Assembly: GCA_018623155.1 (NCBI GenBank)
Contig: JAAZVZ010000002.1
Location: 101,434-165,433, forward strand
DNA length: 64,000 nucleotides
Source of the DNA: Glaciecola sp.
Lineage (GTDB): Bacteria > Pseudomonadota > Gammaproteobacteria > Enterobacterales > Alteromonadaceae
Reading direction: 5' to 3'
Shown here: positions 53,589 to 64,000 of the stretch, piece by piece
How positions within the stretch are numbered: the stretch's first letter is position 1
How the letters are laid out: each line of letters begins with the position of its first letter
Program-made: the position numbers and the translations under genes
Notes under the pieces: model-generated
The model's input: only the letters and a program-made list of their open reading frames with translations
Databases searched by the model: none
Told to the model about the DNA's origin: nothing

Positions 53589-53714
53589 GAATTTTTTATA
53601 TACTGATTTCGACTAAAGTTAATACATTTCTCCTCCCTAAGTAGGATAGTATTTTCACGTGTTAGGCATATAATCAATTATACCGTTAACCAATTGTTAA
53701 GAAGGATTGCTACT

Positions 53715-53786
53715 ATGTGGACAAAACCAGAATATACTGAAATGCGTCTAGGCTTTGAAGTAACTTTATACATCAGCAATCGCTAA
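53715..53786 (+). CDS. pqqA: PQQ precursor peptide PqqA (23 aa), operon copy
   Basis: [23 protein letters not shown] with conserved E-x3-Y (E15, Y19); SD aagga; upstream of pqqB. Not in the supplied ORF track. Confidence 0.97.
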
Positions 53787-53816: not shown

Positions 53817-53845
53817 AAAAGGTTGCTTAGGCAGCCTTTTTCATT
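53817..53845 (+). terminator. Terminator/attenuator between pqqA and pqqB
   Basis: AAAAGGTTGC-ttag-GCAGCCTTTT followed by T-rich run. Confidence 0.75.
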
Positions 53846-53867: not shown

Positions 53868-54788
53868 ATGCAAGTCTTAATATTAGGTGCAGGTGCTGGG
53901 GGCGGTTTTCCTCAGTGGAATTGTCACTGCACAAACTGCGCGGGTCTTCGTCAAGGCCAATCTCATTTCAAAGAACGCACTCAATCGAGTATTGCGGTAT
54001 CGGTAAACGGAAAAGATTGGGTACTCATTAATGCTTCACCCGATTTGCGTCAGCAAATTAATGCAAATCCAGAATTATGGCCTGAACAGGGTATTCAGCG
54101 AGGTACGGCGATCCGTTCTATAATCTTAACCGATAGCCAAATTGACCACACCACAGGTTTACTAGACTTACGCGAAGGCTTGCCTTTACCCGTATACTGT
54201 ACCGAGGTGGTGCATGAGGATCTGACGACCACCTATCCGTTATTTACCATGTTAAAACATTGGCATGGAGGGTTAGAGCAACATATCATTTCGACTGAAC
54301 ATAATGATGCCTTTTCGGTAAAAGGCGTTCCTGAATTACAGTTCCAACCGGTGGTACTTGAATCAAATGCCCCTCCCTACTCTCGTTATCGGGATAACAT
54401 TGTCCCAGGGAACAATATTGGACTTAAAATCACCGATACCACAAATGGTAAAGTCGTATTTTATGCGCCAGGATGTATGCAAGCCAATGACTTAGTCAAG
54501 AATATGATGGAACAGGCGGATTGCGTATTGTTTGATGGCACTTTGTGGCTGGATGATGAGATGATCGCAGGCGGGTTTAGCCAAAAACTGGGTACTCAAA
54601 TGGGCCATATGCCAGTAAACGGTGAGCACGGTACGATCAATCTGCTCAATCAATATGATATACAACGCAAAGTACTGATCCACATCAATAATACCAACCC
54701 TGTTCTCAATGAACAGTCTGAGCAGCATTGTGCCCTAGTCTCACAAGGCATAGAATTGGCTTATGACGGCATGAAAATCAATTTATAA
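53868..54788 (+). CDS. pqqB: PQQ biosynthesis protein PqqB
   Basis: MQVLILGAGAGGGFPQWNCHCTNCAGLRQG metallo-beta-lactamase-fold PqqB. Confidence 0.97.
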   Translation: MQVLILGAGAGGGFPQWNCHCTNCAGLRQGQSHFKERTQSSIAVSVNGKDWVLINASPDLRQQINANPELWPEQGIQRGTAIRSIILTDSQIDHTTGLLDLREGLPLPVYCTEVVHEDLTTTYPLFTMLKHWHGGLEQHIISTEHNDAFSVKGVPELQFQPVVLESNAPPYSRYRDNIVPGNNIGLKITDTTNGKVVFYAPGCMQANDLVKNMMEQADCVLFDGTLWLDDEMIAGGFSQKLGTQMGHMPVNGEHGTINLLNQYDIQRKVLIHINNTNPVLNEQSEQHCALVSQGIELAYDGMKINL

Positions 54789-54797
54789 GGAAAAGAC

Positions 54798-55556
54798 ATG
54801 AGCAACACCACTGCATGGACAAGAGAAGAATTTGAAGCGCAACTCCGTGCTAAAGGTCAGTATTATCATATACATCACCCATTTCACAAAAAAATGAACG
54901 CAGGTCAATGCACCAAAGAACAAGTCCAAGGTTGGGTGGCTAATCGCTTATATTATCAAATTGCTATTCCTGTAAAAGACGCAGGTATACTTGCAAACTG
55001 TCCTGACCAAGCCACGCGCCGAAAGTGGATCCAGCGCATTATTGACCACGATGGACGTGAGGGTGATGATGGTCTTGGTGGGATAGAAGCCTGGTTACGC
55101 CTAGGCGAGGCCGTTGGTTTAACTCGTGAAGAGTTACTTGATGAACGCCATTTGTTGCCAGGTGTCAAATTTGCAGTGGGTGCCTATGTGAATTTTGCGC
55201 GTCGCGCAACCTGGGAAGAAGCGGCTTGCTCGTCTTTAACTGAGATGTTTGCACCTGAAATCCATCAAAGTCGTCTCGATACATGGCCTGAACACTATGA
55301 ATGGATTGACAAAGCAGGGTTTGCTTATTTTCAGCAGCGTTTATCACAAGCAAGACGAGATGTGGAACACGGTTTGGCCATCACATTGGATCATTTCACT
55401 ACTAGAGCACAACAAGAGAGAGCTTTAAACTTATTACAGTTTAAACTCGATGTGTTATGGTCCCTCGCTGATGCCATCAGCTATGCATATGATTACGGAC
55501 AAGTGCCGTATGTTGGTATCGCCGACCAATCTATTAGTCATAAAGGAATGCTATAA
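54798..55556 (+). CDS. pqqC: PQQ synthase PqqC
   Basis: [47 protein letters not shown]. Confidence 0.98.
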
Positions 55557-55820
55557 ATGAGCGCGTTATCCTTAAACCCTTTATATCGCTTGCAGTTTGA
55601 GAAAGCGCAAGATTGTTATGTGCTACTGTTTCCAGAAGGCATGGTGAAGTTAAACCCTTCTGCAGCTGAGATTTTACTGCAAGTCGATGGAAACAAAGAC
55701 GAAGCAGCGATCGTTTCAGCCTTGCGAAGCAAATTCCCTGATGCGCCTGAGGACATAGACGCTGACATTGCCGATTTTATTTCAAAGGCGACAGAAAATA
55801 ACTGGATCACTCATGGCTAA
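55557..55820 (+). CDS. pqqD: PqqD peptide chaperone
   Basis: [30 protein letters not shown]; between pqqC and pqqE. Confidence 0.96.
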
Positions 55821-56931
55821 ACCGCAACCAGGCCCCCCACTTTGGTTACTTGCAGAAGTCACCTATGCATGCCCCTTGCACTGCCCCTACTGCTCCAATC
55901 CAACTGAGCTAGGAGATAAGGCAGATGAAATTGATACACAAACTTGGCTAGACACGCTCAGTCAAGCACGGGAGCTGGGGGCTGTTCAGTTAGGCTTTTC
56001 CGGTGGTGAACCCTTGTTACGCCAAGATTTAGAAATCATGGTCAAACACGCGTCTGACCTTGGCTTTTATACCAACCTCATAACTTCGGGTATTGGCTTA
56101 ACCGAAAAACGTATTAAAGCATTAAAAGACGCCGGTCTGGCGCATATCCAGTTATCATTTCAAGGTGCTTCACCTGACATCAATGATTTGGTCGGTCAGC
56201 GCAAGCACTCATTTGAGCACAAACAAAAAATCGCTCGTCTCGTCAAACAATACGACTACCCTATGGTGCTGAACTTTTGTATCACAGCGACCAATATCCA
56301 TGAGATCCAAGAAATCTTAGAACTGGCGACTGAACTCAATGCTGACTTTGTTGAACTCGCAACTGTGCAATACTACGGCTGGGCGTATCTCAATCGCGAT
56401 GAACTCCTGCCAACCAAAGCGCAATTAGAAGAAGCAGAGGCCAAGGTCAATGCTTATCGCGATGCGCAAAAGAGTGGGCCTAAGTTTATCTTTGTCACAC
56501 CGGATTATTATGAAACTCGACCAAAAGCCTGCATGAATGGCTGGGGCTCGACGTTTCTTACCGTGACACCAGATGGAACAGCGTTGCCTTGCCACAGTGC
56601 TCGGATGCTGCCTTTGCAGTTCCCCAACGTTAAAGATACGTCTTTAGAAACCATTTGGTACGGTGAAACCGATTTTGCGTATTTTAGAGGCGATGATTGG
56701 ATGCCATCACCTTGCAAAACATGTGATGAAAAAGACAAAGACTTCGGTGGCTGTCGCTGTCAAGCCTACATGCTAACTGGTGATATGCATAAGACGGATC
56801 CAGTATGTGATAAGTCTCCAGACCATCATCTGATCCAGACGGCCATAGCCAAAGCAGGACAAAGTCAGAAAACGCTTGTCTATCGCGATCCCAAAAACGC
56901 CATTCCAATCTCTATTGCCGAGACGGACTAA
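55813..56931 (+). CDS. pqqE: PqqA peptide cyclase, radical SAM/SPASM PqqE
   Basis: [11 protein letters not shown] radical SAM CxxxCxxC; C-terminal SPASM cysteines ([17 protein letters not shown]). Confidence 0.97.
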
Positions 56932-56943
56932 GTTTGGAGTAAC

Positions 56944-58038
56944 TTGATGTCGGTGCAGTCGTTTGGATGGGATAAGTATGATTATGCTGCCGTATGTATT
57001 GTGCCAACGCCAAGCATAGACGCTTCCGGTATTGCGCATCTTGTCGAACACCTGGTATTTAGGTATTCCGATAAATATCCTAATGGGCACGAATTATTTG
57101 TCGCGAACACAATACTGCCCGCCAAAATCAATGCTAGTACTCAGGATGACTATACCTTATTTTACGTTGTCAGCGCTGATAGCGAAGTATTCTTGAATTG
57201 TCTGGACTATTTGGCACATGGCATCAACCAGCTAGATTATCCTGAGCAATGTATTCAGCTAGAACGTGATGGTGTATTACAACGAGAGTTACAATGGCTT
57301 GAGAGTCAATCAGACTATCTGACAGAGGCAAAGACAAACCGAGTAAACCCCTCCTGCGTGCATGCCGGGGGCTACAGTGATTTAATACCACACAATAGTC
57401 TAAGTGATGTAAGGCTTTACAAACAAACGTGTTATTTGGCGTCTCATCGTCAGTGGCTAATTAATGGTAAAGAGATTGAGCAAGCTGAATTAGCATTTAT
57501 AGACGACACTGCGACATTTATGACAGGTCCAAGAACAAATACTTGCTCCACTAATCGTTATGACACGCAAAAACTACCTAAGGTTATTCAAGATTTATTA
57601 GCAGCAGCGATACCGGCCGGCCACACCCATGAATTATTACAATCGTTAAGAGAGCAGCTCACGCAAACACTTATGACACGTCATATTCAGCCAACTCAAA
57701 CAAGCATACAACCAGTTCATTTTAAAAACCTGCCCATCCCCAGCGAGTGCCTCAGTAATCAGCTTTCACAATTAGCACAAACATGTTTTCCCCATATCAG
57801 CACAGATCATATCCCACCACTCCCCAAATTTATTCTAGGCCAGATCCAAAAACATCCAGAGTTACTGTCGGGTAAGTCTTGTGAACACATCACACTATTT
57901 AAACTTGATTTACTTGATATTGAGCATATTAGCCAAGCGAAGTTTTGGCAAAAACGCCTCCAAGGACACTGTTATGCCATGGGAGTGGGCTATTTTGAAG
58001 GTCATATCTATCAATATCTATTTGCTGAAAACAGGTAA
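56944..58038 (+). CDS. Compact M16-family peptidase, candidate PqqF equivalent
   Basis: Inverted zinc motif HLVEH and downstream ERDGVLQRE; 12 bp after pqqE; only 364 aa. Confidence 0.8.
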   Translation: MMSVQSFGWDKYDYAAVCIVPTPSIDASGIAHLVEHLVFRYSDKYPNGHELFVANTILPAKINASTQDDYTLFYVVSADSEVFLNCLDYLAHGINQLDYPEQCIQLERDGVLQRELQWLESQSDYLTEAKTNRVNPSCVHAGGYSDLIPHNSLSDVRLYKQTCYLASHRQWLINGKEIEQAELAFIDDTATFMTGPRTNTCSTNRYDTQKLPKVIQDLLAAAIPAGHTHELLQSLREQLTQTLMTRHIQPTQTSIQPVHFKNLPIPSECLSNQLSQLAQTCFPHISTDHIPPLPKFILGQIQKHPELLSGKSCEHITLFKLDLLDIEHISQAKFWQKRLQGHCYAMGVGYFEGHIYQYLFAENR

Positions 58039-58053
58039 CACCGCAAAGTGTCT

Positions 58054-59439
58054 TTATCGTCCTCGAGCACCTGACGCAATACAGGCACATAAGACCATCC
58101 CTAAAGACAACATCAGTGCCAACTCAACCGTATTGGCAATATCATCAAGTGAAGCCGACTCAATGGGCACGTCTCCGATAATGATATGAATCATTGTATT
58201 GACTACACTCATACCAATTAAGTTACCCACGGTTCGGCCTAGATTCATCGCCGCAGAGGCTACACCAATTTCAGCTTTTGTCACACTGCTCACAATCGAG
58301 TTATTGTTTGGCGTAGAAAACAAGCCAAAACCAATACCAAGAATGAGTAATGCCAGACCTATCCACCATGGTTCAGCCATGATTAAAGGGATATTCAGCA
58401 AAAAAAGTCCAACCGCTACAATACTACAGCCAATTGTCGCCACCACTCGTGAGGCAAACCGGTCGGCTAATTTGCCAGCCACAGGAGCCATAATTGCCAT
58501 GGACAACGCCTGAAACAGTAAAATATTTCCAGCTTGAGAGGGAGATAAATTATGAATAAATTGCAGATACACACTGAGTAAAAACAACAGCGCAAAGTTA
58601 CTCCCATACATAAACAAAGAGCTGGTCAGAGATAAGGAAAATAATCGATTTTCACGAAACATTTGGACGCGAATCAATGGTGTTTCTGTATGAATTTGGA
58701 GATAGATAAATAACCATAAAGCGCCAAAAGAAGCGCATACGGTAGTAACACCATACCATGAAGGGAGTTGTGCCATTCCCAAGACAAATAAACATGAAAA
58801 TAGTGCAAAAACTGCAGTGCCTAACCAATCTACAGCATGAGTTTCTGAGTCTTTCCATTCACCTGGCAGTTTTATAGCAATATATACGAGTAGCAAAACG
58901 ATAAGAGGTACCTGAAACCAAAAAACAGAACGCCAGCCCATAAATTCAGTGAGATAACCACCCGCCACAGGCGCAAGCGTTAACCCAACATAAACACACG
59001 AGGCAACAATCCCTAGCGCCATACCGCGTTTTTTCGCCGGTACGATAGATGAAACAATCGCCACGCCTGTACCAAAGATCATTGCTGCAGCAATACCTTG
59101 CACAAACCTTAAAAGTAAAATAACGTCCATATTACTGCTTATACTCGAAACCGTCGCAGCCAGTCCGTTTACACACAAACCATAAACAAACACACGTTTT
59201 CGACCATACCGGTCAGCCAAGCGACTGGCGGGTAAAAAACACATAACACTGCTGAGGATATAAACCGTTGGTAACCACCCTACTTGCGCAGCGGATGCCT
59301 GTAAATCAAGCGCTAAAGCGGGTATTGCAACATTCACTGCAGATAAGCCCATCGGCGCAATGAGGTACCCTGCACAGACAGCGATTAACGCGACTAAAAC
59401 GGACGGTTCAGACGCTAAAGAGGAAGTCTCTGGACTCAT
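58054..59439 (-). CDS. MFS (drug-resistance type) transporter
   Basis: Multiple TM helices; ASRLADRYGRKRVFVYGL loop; 4-bp overlap with upstream regulator. Confidence 0.9.
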   Translation of the reverse strand: MSPETSSLASEPSVLVALIAVCAGYLIAPMGLSAVNVAIPALALDLQASAAQVGWLPTVYILSSVMCFLPASRLADRYGRKRVFVYGLCVNGLAATVSSISSNMDVILLLRFVQGIAAAMIFGTGVAIVSSIVPAKKRGMALGIVASCVYVGLTLAPVAGGYLTEFMGWRSVFWFQVPLIVLLLVYIAIKLPGEWKDSETHAVDWLGTAVFALFSCLFVLGMAQLPSWYGVTTVCASFGALWLFIYLQIHTETPLIRVQMFRENRLFSLSLTSSLFMYGSNFALLFLLSVYLQFIHNLSPSQAGNILLFQALSMAIMAPVAGKLADRFASRVVATIGCSIVAVGLFLLNIPLIMAEPWWIGLALLILGIGFGLFSTPNNNSIVSSVTKAEIGVASAAMNLGRTVGNLIGMSVVNTMIHIIIGDVPIESASLDDIANTVELALMLSLGMVLCACIASGARGR

Positions 59440-60347
59440 GAGTGTAGATGATATCCCGGTGCAATGGTTCTGTTTTCAGCTTCATCGAGTACTTCCAGGT
59501 TGGCAAGTTGTAACTGATACTCAGCGCCTTTTAGTGAAGCATGTGGCGAACAGTCTACATTCCAACGACGTAACAAGTACCCCGCCATTGCTTTTCTAAC
59601 ATGGACAATGAGCTTGCCATCGGTCATGCCAAAATCTAATTCAATCGCAGTGGGGTGTGAGATATTTTTGCTATGTGGAATCAACGTTAATGGAAGCAAC
59701 GTCTGCCATTGCTCATCCGCAGCTTGCTCCTCGGCATAAACCGTTTCATCATCCATCATACTCACATGGGACAAACGCGTGAGAACAAAGTCCCTAAAAC
59801 TCTGGGATTTGCGGTCGAATGCCCGCACATGCCAGCGCTGACCATTGTCAACAATGCTATGCGGAACCAGCTCACGAGCACCAGAACCGCTCGATAATGA
59901 TGTGTATATCACACTTACTACTTTGTGCTGTATCATGGCTTGAGATAACGTCGCAATGACATCGATGTTGGGTGTGTTAAGGTTAGATGGCTTTTCCACT
60001 GGAAAAGCAACTTCACCAATTGCATCAGAACCATCACTGATTTGATGCGTTAATTTAATGAGCGTTTTATGTGCATCATGGGTGAATAAAGGCGAAAACT
60101 CAGGCGCGATAAAATATTTTTTGACTGCGTTGTCATAGTGCATATTGTCCGGCTTTAATGATTTATAAAGATTGATGTCACGTGTCGCTGCTGCTAAACC
60201 CAGCTCAAAATGCTGAACAATTTGACTGCGCGTCATCATTCCCGTGAAATAAAGGGTAAAATCAATATATGCCAAGCGTTGTTTCTGTGCAAAGCTCATA
60301 TCTGGTAGAGACTCTTTCAACGTTTCAGCCATGTCATTGCCTATCAT
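59436..60347 (-). CDS. WYL-domain transcriptional regulator, BrxR/CapW-like
   Basis: N-terminal wHTH AQKQRLAYIDFTLYFTGMMTRSQIVQHFELGLAAATRDINLY; WYL-like REL/WHVRAFDRKSQSFRDFVLTRL. Confidence 0.75.
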   Translation of the reverse strand: MIGNDMAETLKESLPDMSFAQKQRLAYIDFTLYFTGMMTRSQIVQHFELGLAAATRDINLYKSLKPDNMHYDNAVKKYFIAPEFSPLFTHDAHKTLIKLTHQISDGSDAIGEVAFPVEKPSNLNTPNIDVIATLSQAMIQHKVVSVIYTSLSSGSGARELVPHSIVDNGQRWHVRAFDRKSQSFRDFVLTRLSHVSMMDDETVYAEEQAADEQWQTLLPLTLIPHSKNISHPTAIELDFGMTDGKLIVHVRKAMAGYLLRRWNVDCSPHASLKGAEYQLQLANLEVLDEAENRTIAPGYHLHS

Positions 60348-60361
60348 GAAATTCAGGTATG

Positions 60362-60389
60362 TATCAAAATAATATGTATCATTTTGATA
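60362..60389. promoter_or_regulatory. Operator-like inverted repeat upstream of WYL regulator
   Basis: TATCAAAAT-10 bp-ATTTTGATA, perfect 9-bp arms, 15 bp from the start codon. Confidence 0.6.
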
Positions 60390-60481
60390 TTTATGTCAAT
60401 GGGATTTGCCATAACACGGTATGACACACACAACAAAATATGGCATGATCCAATCTAAGAAACGTCTTAAGATCTTTCATT

Positions 60482-60988
60482 ATGGAATTAGTCCAAATCA
60501 ATAAAACGCGTTACCGTAAACATCTCAATGTGGTGATTGTTTGTTGTATCATTGCACTTACATCGGGTAGCTTAGGCATCGCGCAAACTCTTATTGCGGT
60601 ATTCCCTGATCCAGATGGCAGTCATTTTCATTGGAATCTCTTGGGCGTAATTGTAACAGCCCTGATAATTGGCGGTATTTTGGGTAACATCAAGCAACAC
60701 CCTTTTATGAAAGAAGTGGTCTATGTTTGGGATCTCAAACAAGTCCTGAACAAACTTACCCGGAAAATGGCAACGTTAAAACGCGCAGCACAGGACGGAG
60801 ATATCGACGCGATGAATGCGATTCAGTATAGTTATGCCGGTTCTCGCTTATTGTGGCAACTCGATGACAATACTCTAGTCATGGATGAATTATCCATTGC
60901 TCAAGCCGAACTTGATGCATTAGCCAAACACCACAACGTGACTCTGGATGCGTCATCATTTCAGATATCACACCTCAAACAATATTAA
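60482..60988 (+). CDS. DUF3087-like membrane protein
   Basis: Two TM helices (VVIVCCIIALTSGSLGIA; LLGVIVTALIIGGILG) and conserved C-terminal domain; family recalled. Confidence 0.65.
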   Translation: MELVQINKTRYRKHLNVVIVCCIIALTSGSLGIAQTLIAVFPDPDGSHFHWNLLGVIVTALIIGGILGNIKQHPFMKEVVYVWDLKQVLNKLTRKMATLKRAAQDGDIDAMNAIQYSYAGSRLLWQLDDNTLVMDELSIAQAELDALAKHHNVTLDASSFQISHLKQY

Positions 60989-62275: not shown

Positions 62276-63607
62276 GTGTTTCTACTACGTCGTATTTTAT
62301 TACTCCTGTGTGCATTCGTATTTTCATTTCCCGCCACAGCCACCACCTGCTCTATCCTAAAAAATAACTATATGGCTGAGATCGTTGCTGGGACAATCCA
62401 AGTTCCGCTGCATCACCCTGCTTTACTAGATATGTCATCTCGATATTCTTTACCTGAAGATACCCAATCCCAAATAACCCTTGCCTACTTTTATCGACCC
62501 AGTTTCTCTGACAATCCGGCTCCCCCTTTACTGGTTTTAAACGGAGGTCCAGGTGTGAGCAGTCACCATATGATGGCAAAAATGCTCACCGACAAGAGGC
62601 TATCCAATGTACCGCTAGTCTTTATGGACCAACGCGGCACTGGTTGTTCAACTCACTATCCAATTTTGGATAAAGCATCCATTGCACACGCTTTACACTG
62701 GGGTTCAAGCTCCATTGTTCATGATGCAGAACTATTGAGGAAATCACTCTTCCCCAATCAAAAATGGCGTTTGTTTGGTCACAGCTACGGTGGATTAATT
62801 GCATATCGATACATCGAACTACTGCCACACGCCCTCTCTGACGTCACCATATTTGGATACAGCCCAACACACGATCCCATCGATTGGCTGTATCGTCAGA
62901 CACGCTTTATCACAGAGCAGAGTCACGCATACTTAGCCAAATATCCTGATGACAAAAAGGTACTCACACATATGCGTTCTGTCATTGAAACGGATACCTG
63001 TTTACAAATGTCGCAATATGAGATTTGTGGTGATGCTATTCTCGACGCATTGGGACATCATCTCGCATTTTATGATTATTGGCCCAATGTTCACTATTTA
63101 TTAAATGAGCTTGCACAAGCTTGGGAAACACCTAGGGAACAGCAAGCGATGCTTGCCATTGCTAAGATTGCATTTGCAGGCTTTAAGTTACCTGGAGGCG
63201 GGTTAGTACAAAACGCCATATCCAACTATGAAATCGTCGCCGGCTACACGCCTAAACAAGCCTTTGACAAGGTGAATAAACGCATTATCCGTAACCGTAT
63301 CGATACCTCTAGCTGGTTGTTTAATCCTATTTATTACATACAAAACCTCACAACGGGTAATCGTGAGGATATTTTTGTTCAGAATATATCGCATTCTCTC
63401 TCATTAGCCAAAATTACAGAACACGTCAGCGAGCACCTTGATATAAGACTGAATTTATTCGCAGGAGAGCGAGATGGAATCGTCCCACCTGCACTATTTA
63501 CTGATATTAATTCACAGATCAAGTCACAACGGCATTTCACAATGTTACGCGATGCCGGTCACAATGATTTTATGCACGACCAAGTATTACAGGCACTCAA
63601 GAAATAA
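62276..63607 (+). CDS. Exported alpha/beta hydrolase, S33 proline iminopeptidase-like
   Basis: Signal peptide; LNGGPGVSS, FMDQRGTGCS, FGHSYGGLIAY; catalytic Asp/His in AGERDGIVPP and DAGHNDF. GTG-type start inferred. Confidence 0.85.
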   Translation: MFLLRRILLLLCAFVFSFPATATTCSILKNNYMAEIVAGTIQVPLHHPALLDMSSRYSLPEDTQSQITLAYFYRPSFSDNPAPPLLVLNGGPGVSSHHMMAKMLTDKRLSNVPLVFMDQRGTGCSTHYPILDKASIAHALHWGSSSIVHDAELLRKSLFPNQKWRLFGHSYGGLIAYRYIELLPHALSDVTIFGYSPTHDPIDWLYRQTRFITEQSHAYLAKYPDDKKVLTHMRSVIETDTCLQMSQYEICGDAILDALGHHLAFYDYWPNVHYLLNELAQAWETPREQQAMLAIAKIAFAGFKLPGGGLVQNAISNYEIVAGYTPKQAFDKVNKRIIRNRIDTSSWLFNPIYYIQNLTTGNREDIFVQNISHSLSLAKITEHVSEHLDIRLNLFAGERDGIVPPALFTDINSQIKSQRHFTMLRDAGHNDFMHDQVLQALKK

Positions 63608-63697
63608 AAAATGTATTTTTCCTACTATTGAAGGGTATAGATGATCATTAAATCTGCCTATACTTATCGATAGTTTTTAACAAATGGAGTAAAAACT

Positions 63698-63769
63698 ATG
63701 TGGACTAAACCTGAATATCTTGAAATGAGATTAGGGTTTGAAGTTACGTTATATATTAGTAACCGATAA
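63698..63769 (+). CDS. pqqA: Second PQQ precursor peptide PqqA (23 aa), orphan copy
   Basis: [23 protein letters not shown], 22/23 identical to the operon copy; SD ggag upstream; terminator downstream. Not in the ORF track. Confidence 0.95.
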
Positions 63770-63783
63770 CATACGTCTAAATT

Positions 63784-63817
63784 AAAAAGGTTGCTCATGG
63801 CAACCTTTTTCTTTTTT
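63784..63817 (+). terminator. Terminator after orphan pqqA
   Basis: AAAAAGGTTGC-tcatg-GCAACCTTTTT followed by T-run. Confidence 0.85.
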
Positions 63818-63950
63818 TGCGAACCCATTGTAAGCTATGAAATGTTCTTCATATTGGATTAGATTAAACTAAAAATACAGTTTAATAAGGCAGTCTTAGG
63901 TATATCTGAGACTATTGGGTTTATTAGAATAATCACGGAGCAAAAGAAAA

Positions 63951-64000
63951 TGGTCGGTGTGATAGGATTTGAACCTACGACCCCTGACACCCCATGACAG
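63951..64000 (-). tRNA. tRNA-Pro (GGG), truncated by window edge
   Basis: Reverse complement CTGTCATGGGGTGTCAGGGGTCGTAGGTTCAAATCCTATCACACCGACCA; anticodon loop ATGGGGT, T-arm and CCA present. Confidence 0.88.

Follow-up and report, generated by a model that had tools for sequence, protein, structure and literature searches.

The window analysed here, a 64,000-nucleotide stretch of a Glaciecola genome, raises the question of what a second pqqA gene, standing alone at a distance from the pqq operon, does in this organism, and whether it is a working gene at all. The orphan gene, pqqA2, occupies positions 63698-63769 of the forward strand and encodes 23 amino acids plus a stop codon; the operon copy, pqqA1, lies at 53715-53786 on the same strand. 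The two genes differ at 15 of 72 nucleotides in 13 codons, with a single residue change (T8L); these values, like the coordinates and the translation, had been given in an initial annotation and proved exact. Synonymous differences number 12-13. The PqqA2 peptide scored above the cut-offs of both PF08042 from Pfam (38.6 bits, cut-off 21.1) and TIGR02107 from NCBIfam (44.6 bits, cut-off 20), PqqA1 likewise exceeded the curated PqqA models, and the Glu-x3-Tyr crosslink pair that had been described as conserved is present as E15 and Y19, within EVTLY. The gene had also been called unannotated. It is indeed absent from the open reading frame track, but the cause is the length limit of that track, since a curated 21-position model detects it; genes of 23 residues escape length-limited tracks and are recovered by curated models. 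Random substitution agrees with the proposal that selection acts on the peptide: when 15 changes were placed at random in pqqA1, the mean number of altered residues was about 10 and no trial out of 100,000 altered fewer than 4, whereas one residue separates the two natural copies. These comparisons support the view that pqqA2 is a real second pqqA, upheld by selection on its peptide.

Judged by its sequence, pqqA2 is also a separate transcription unit. It is situated 9.9 kb from pqqA1, close to the 10 kb first estimated, and has a conserved upstream region. The Shine-Dalgarno sequence and terminator attributed to it were both located, the former as GGAG at 63686-63689 and the latter as an intrinsic terminator at 63784-63810, whose type of stem occurs in the window only 3' of the two pqqA genes.

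Conservation of this unit was assessed in ten Glaciecola genomes, one of which (G000) is that of the window. Both pqqA copies are present in three of the ten (G000, G004 and G008), a single copy in four (G001, G002, G007 and G009) and none in the remaining three; two of the four genomes with a pqq operon and no orphan are only 82-83% complete. The expectation that the orphan would be conserved in relatives held, as orthologues occupy the same place in G004 and G008, adjoining a divergently transcribed gene for a TRAP binding protein. G004, where the distance between the copies is about 8.6 kb, is a single-contig assembly. Promoter region, coding sequence and terminator are conserved across the three genomes; between G000 and G004 there are 2 differences in the 79 upstream nucleotides and 2 in the 72 of the coding sequence, compared with 26 in 130 beyond the terminator. 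We therefore consider it unlikely that pqqA2 is a vestige or an expendable duplicate with little or no expression, on its way to being lost. Its confinement to one sub-clade of the genus would suit such a fate, as would the inconstancy of residue 8, which is L or H depending on the species. However, residue 8 is variable among PqqA peptides in general, the DNA past the terminator has diverged more than the promoter region and the coding sequence, and the gene is intact in three species between which about 25-28% of the synonymous sites of the adjoining TRAP gene differ.

The initial annotation had attached meaning to a neighbouring exported peptidase, and this part of it was not supported. The gene in question (62276-63607) encodes an exported alpha/beta hydrolase that falls under every proline-iminopeptidase cut-off, and all that G004 keeps of it is a 52-bp remnant (94% identical; L014:14314-14364) upstream of an intact pqqA2 unit. 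Because G004 has lost the hydrolase gene and kept pqqA2, the unit is independent of this neighbour. A role for the hydrolase was rejected; the gene also had no match in seven other genomes of the genus, in a search that lacked a positive control. On the other side of the unit, G004 and G008 carry tRNA-Pro(GGG), and the contig of the window stops at 63950-64000 inside a reverse-strand tRNA that is apparently the same gene. An Rfam match to HPnc0260 at 63871-63989, which overlaps this cut-off tRNA region, was rejected (E 0.31, below the gathering score).

Where pqqA2 came from is less settled than that it is maintained. An old duplication had been proposed, and its peptide and terminator do resemble those of pqqA1 of the same genome, but its codons are closest to the pqqA of another family of the order. 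In a comparison that rests on 72 bases, pqqA2 shares 64 and 63 of 72 bases with the pqqA genes of two members of that family, G199 and G240, compared with 57 of 72 for pqqA1; at shared residues it uses the same codon in 14 of 16 and 13 of 16 cases, respectively, compared with 7 of 19. It is thus possible, although we lean away from it, that pqqA2 is a xenologue acquired horizontally rather than a duplicate of pqqA1, with the same job in either case. Residues 6, 7 and 9 argue against acquisition, as they are E, Y and E in both Glaciecola copies and D, F and D in G199 and G240. The terminator likewise resembles that of pqqA1 and is unlike that of the G199 and G240 genes, the flanks of pqqA2 show no likeness to theirs, and convergent codon choice could account for the agreement, given how few the sites are.

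The pattern of synonymous change also bears on whether the pqqA2 transcript is chiefly a regulatory RNA, with the peptide secondary. Synonymous sites are kept between pqqA2 orthologues, and the predicted transcript including its terminator folds better than shuffled sequences (z -3.9). However, the terminator hairpin explains much of this fold, no Rfam family was found at pqqA2, and the peptide has been retained even though pqqA2 and pqqA1 disagree at almost every synonymous site. We regard this reading as very improbable.

In a comparison that covered the pqqA1 promoters of seven genomes and the promoters upstream of the PQQ alcohol dehydrogenase gene in eight, a common near-palindrome emerged, TCMTMC-N4-GKAKGA. 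In the window, the predicted operator of the pqq operon is TCCTCCCTAAGTAGGA (53631-53646, forward strand), and that of pqqA2, matching the element common to the pqq operon and dehydrogenase promoters, is TCCTACTATTGAAGGG (63620-63635, forward strand). A matrix trained only on species outside the clade of the window gave its best score in the 64 kb to the pqqA1 promoter and its next best to that of pqqA2, where an order-2 Markov null gives a chance expectation of about 0.001 such hits per 130 bp; the motif was first spotted with pqqA2 in sight, though the matrix left it out. Among these sites, that of pqqA2 matches least well, and in its G008 orthologue the match is poorer still. The spacing to the -10 box is nearly constant, at 38 nt from the operator start in all seven pqqA1 promoters (TATAAT at 53669-53674 in the window, forward strand) and 39 nt in pqqA2, whose candidate -10 box is TATACT (63659-63664, forward strand). 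Five of the eight dehydrogenase promoters have TAnnnT at 38 nt; it was not found at that distance in the dehydrogenase promoters of the window's clade or in the cytochrome c and PedA-like promoters. Such spacing would place the operator next to or overlapping the -35 position, as for class II activator binding. No standard -35 box precedes pqqA2 and a standard sigma-70 scan gave no promoter there, which is consistent with an activator-dependent promoter without a good -35. Outside the operator and terminator, the pqqA2 and pqqA1 flanking regions show no promoter likeness.

Genome-wide, a pattern drawn loosely enough to take in pqqA2 matched five distinct sites in G004, and the reversed control pattern matched none. 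The five sites are upstream of pqqA1, pqqA2 and the alcohol dehydrogenase, in a divergent promoter shared by cytochrome c and PedA-like genes, and inside a TonB-receptor gene near the dehydrogenase cluster. As looked for in an AgmR-type regulon, the predicted operator is thus shared by the pqq operon, the PQQ alcohol dehydrogenase and, with its weakest site, pqqA2, upstream of which it stands in each case. Two matches in G000 were set aside as probable chance matches, one inside a TonB receptor gene (C28:24835) and one at the start of a thiolase gene (C42:72397) that is missing from the G004 and G008 hits. Another operator-like site, TCCTTCTAAGGGAGGA, occurs in G000 before the FIST and hybrid-kinase genes of the dehydrogenase cluster (C28 about 33375, L119:15376; also L122:11318), suggesting that the sensors of the regulon may themselves be under its control. 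The predicted operator is the new element here and deserves follow-up more than the extra pqqA itself.

The dehydrogenase is closest to the quinoprotein ethanol dehydrogenase 6zcv, which we take to be PedH of Pseudomonas putida, and has the DYD motif, a mark of lanthanide-type enzymes. Its cluster comprises the PedH-like dehydrogenase, a cytochrome c, a PedA-like binding protein, a beta-propeller protein, a FIST protein, a hybrid histidine kinase and a LuxR-type response regulator with Response_reg and GerE domains (G000, C28:28977-29666). From its position and domains, we infer that this regulator is AgmR/ErbR-like. In Pseudomonas, according to the available text of PMC12997753, AgmR (ErbR/PedR1) activates both the ped cluster and the distant pqq operon, and the Glaciecola cluster is similar to ped in its genes. 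In contrast, the portion of that source available offered no counterpart of the TCMTMC-N4-GKAKGA-like operator for the AgmR regulon, and it tabulates one pqqA for P. putida where Glaciecola has two. Two genomes of the genus, G003 and G006 (L047 and L050), have a PQQ alcohol dehydrogenase, and neither PqqA nor a true PqqE was found in them, suggesting dependence on external PQQ or assembly gaps.

Taken as a unit of this kind, pqqA2 is probably a functional, stand-alone transcription unit for a second PqqA copy, co-regulated with the other PQQ genes and boosting precursor supply. The candidate LuxR-type regulator would bind the operator, which lies a short way 5' of the -10 region, and would jointly activate pqqA2, the pqq operon and the dehydrogenase. 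PqqA2 would then be crosslinked by the sole PqqD/PqqE set and converted to PQQ; a PqqE search found one PqqE in the genome and recovered a single synthesis set, pqqB, pqqC, pqqD and pqqE (53868-56931, forward strand). PqqA is a substrate, one molecule of which is consumed for each PQQ, while PqqB-E are catalysts that turn over. A second, monocistronic pqqA would therefore provide more precursor without extra enzyme. A terminator-like hairpin between pqqA1 and pqqB (53818-53839, forward strand) would serve the same end. In the accessible parts of PMC9851590 and PMC11317620, orphan or multiple pqqA copies of other bacteria are described as expressed, some strongly. Whether the new operator defines a regulon for PQQ/lanthanide-type alcohol oxidation in marine Glaciecola, with a monocistronic pqqA, acquired or duplicated, recruited to it as a dedicated precursor-supply gene, we consider evenly balanced. 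Tying pqqA2 to a concrete predicted operator makes both the idea that precursor limits PQQ and its proposed regulator testable.

Extra pqqA copies had been noted as known in some methylotrophs, which is correct but understated. Of 399 Pseudomonadota genomes, sampled evenly, 65 have PqqA, and 24 of those have two or more copies; in 21 of these 24, the copies are on different contigs or about 10 kb or more apart. Within the order, 17 of 395 genomes have PqqA, two of them more than one copy. Scattered multiple pqqA genes are thus widespread, the term orphan pqqA is already in the literature, and the Glaciecola case is fairly ordinary. As far as the available text of PMC11317620 goes, the orphan pqqA2 and pqqA3 of Methylorubrum extorquens AM1 lie apart from the pqq operon, as in Glaciecola, and their expression differs with lanthanide source; that text also cites PqqA supply as rate-limiting in Methylovorus MP688. 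AM1 is an alphaproteobacterial methylotroph, whereas Glaciecola is marine, belongs to the Gammaproteobacteria and has a PedH-like enzyme, and the same portion of text reports no operator link for the AM1 orphans, whereas Glaciecola pqqA2 has a predicted operator. Methylovorus MP688, Hyphomicrobium (five copies, three of them scattered; PMC9851590) and Methylophilaceae (3-12 copies; PMC4109929) resemble Glaciecola in having several pqqA genes alongside a single set of the remaining pqq genes, but they are classical methylotrophs with more copies. Orphan or multiple copies also occur in Beijerinckiaceae RH AL1 (PMC10848612). Among the titles and abstracts listed, none was specific to PQQ in Glaciecola. 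The present case shows that a marine heterotroph with a small genome, outside the classical methylotrophs, also maintains separately transcribed genes for the PQQ precursor.

Several minor observations concern the pqq operon itself. At 72 of 72 bases, pqqA1 is identical in G000, G004 and G008, while 44-52% of synonymous sites in pqqB differ between G000 and the other two. Identity amid such divergence points to constraint at the level of RNA or codons, and pqqA1 is even more constrained than pqqA2. Divergence varies along the region: between G000 and G004, the stretch from pqqE to a DUF3087 gene (window 55768-60988) is close, with dS of about 0.1-0.2, pqqB and an M17 peptidase gene are far apart (dS 0.7-0.8), and pqqE of G008 is also far (dS 1.2). 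This mosaic suggests recombination within the pqq region. Downstream of pqqE, at 56944-58038 on the forward strand, is a gene for a short M16 peptidase (PF00675), PqqF-like by position. Its product has only 364 amino acids, about half the usual length, and retains the HLVEH motif.
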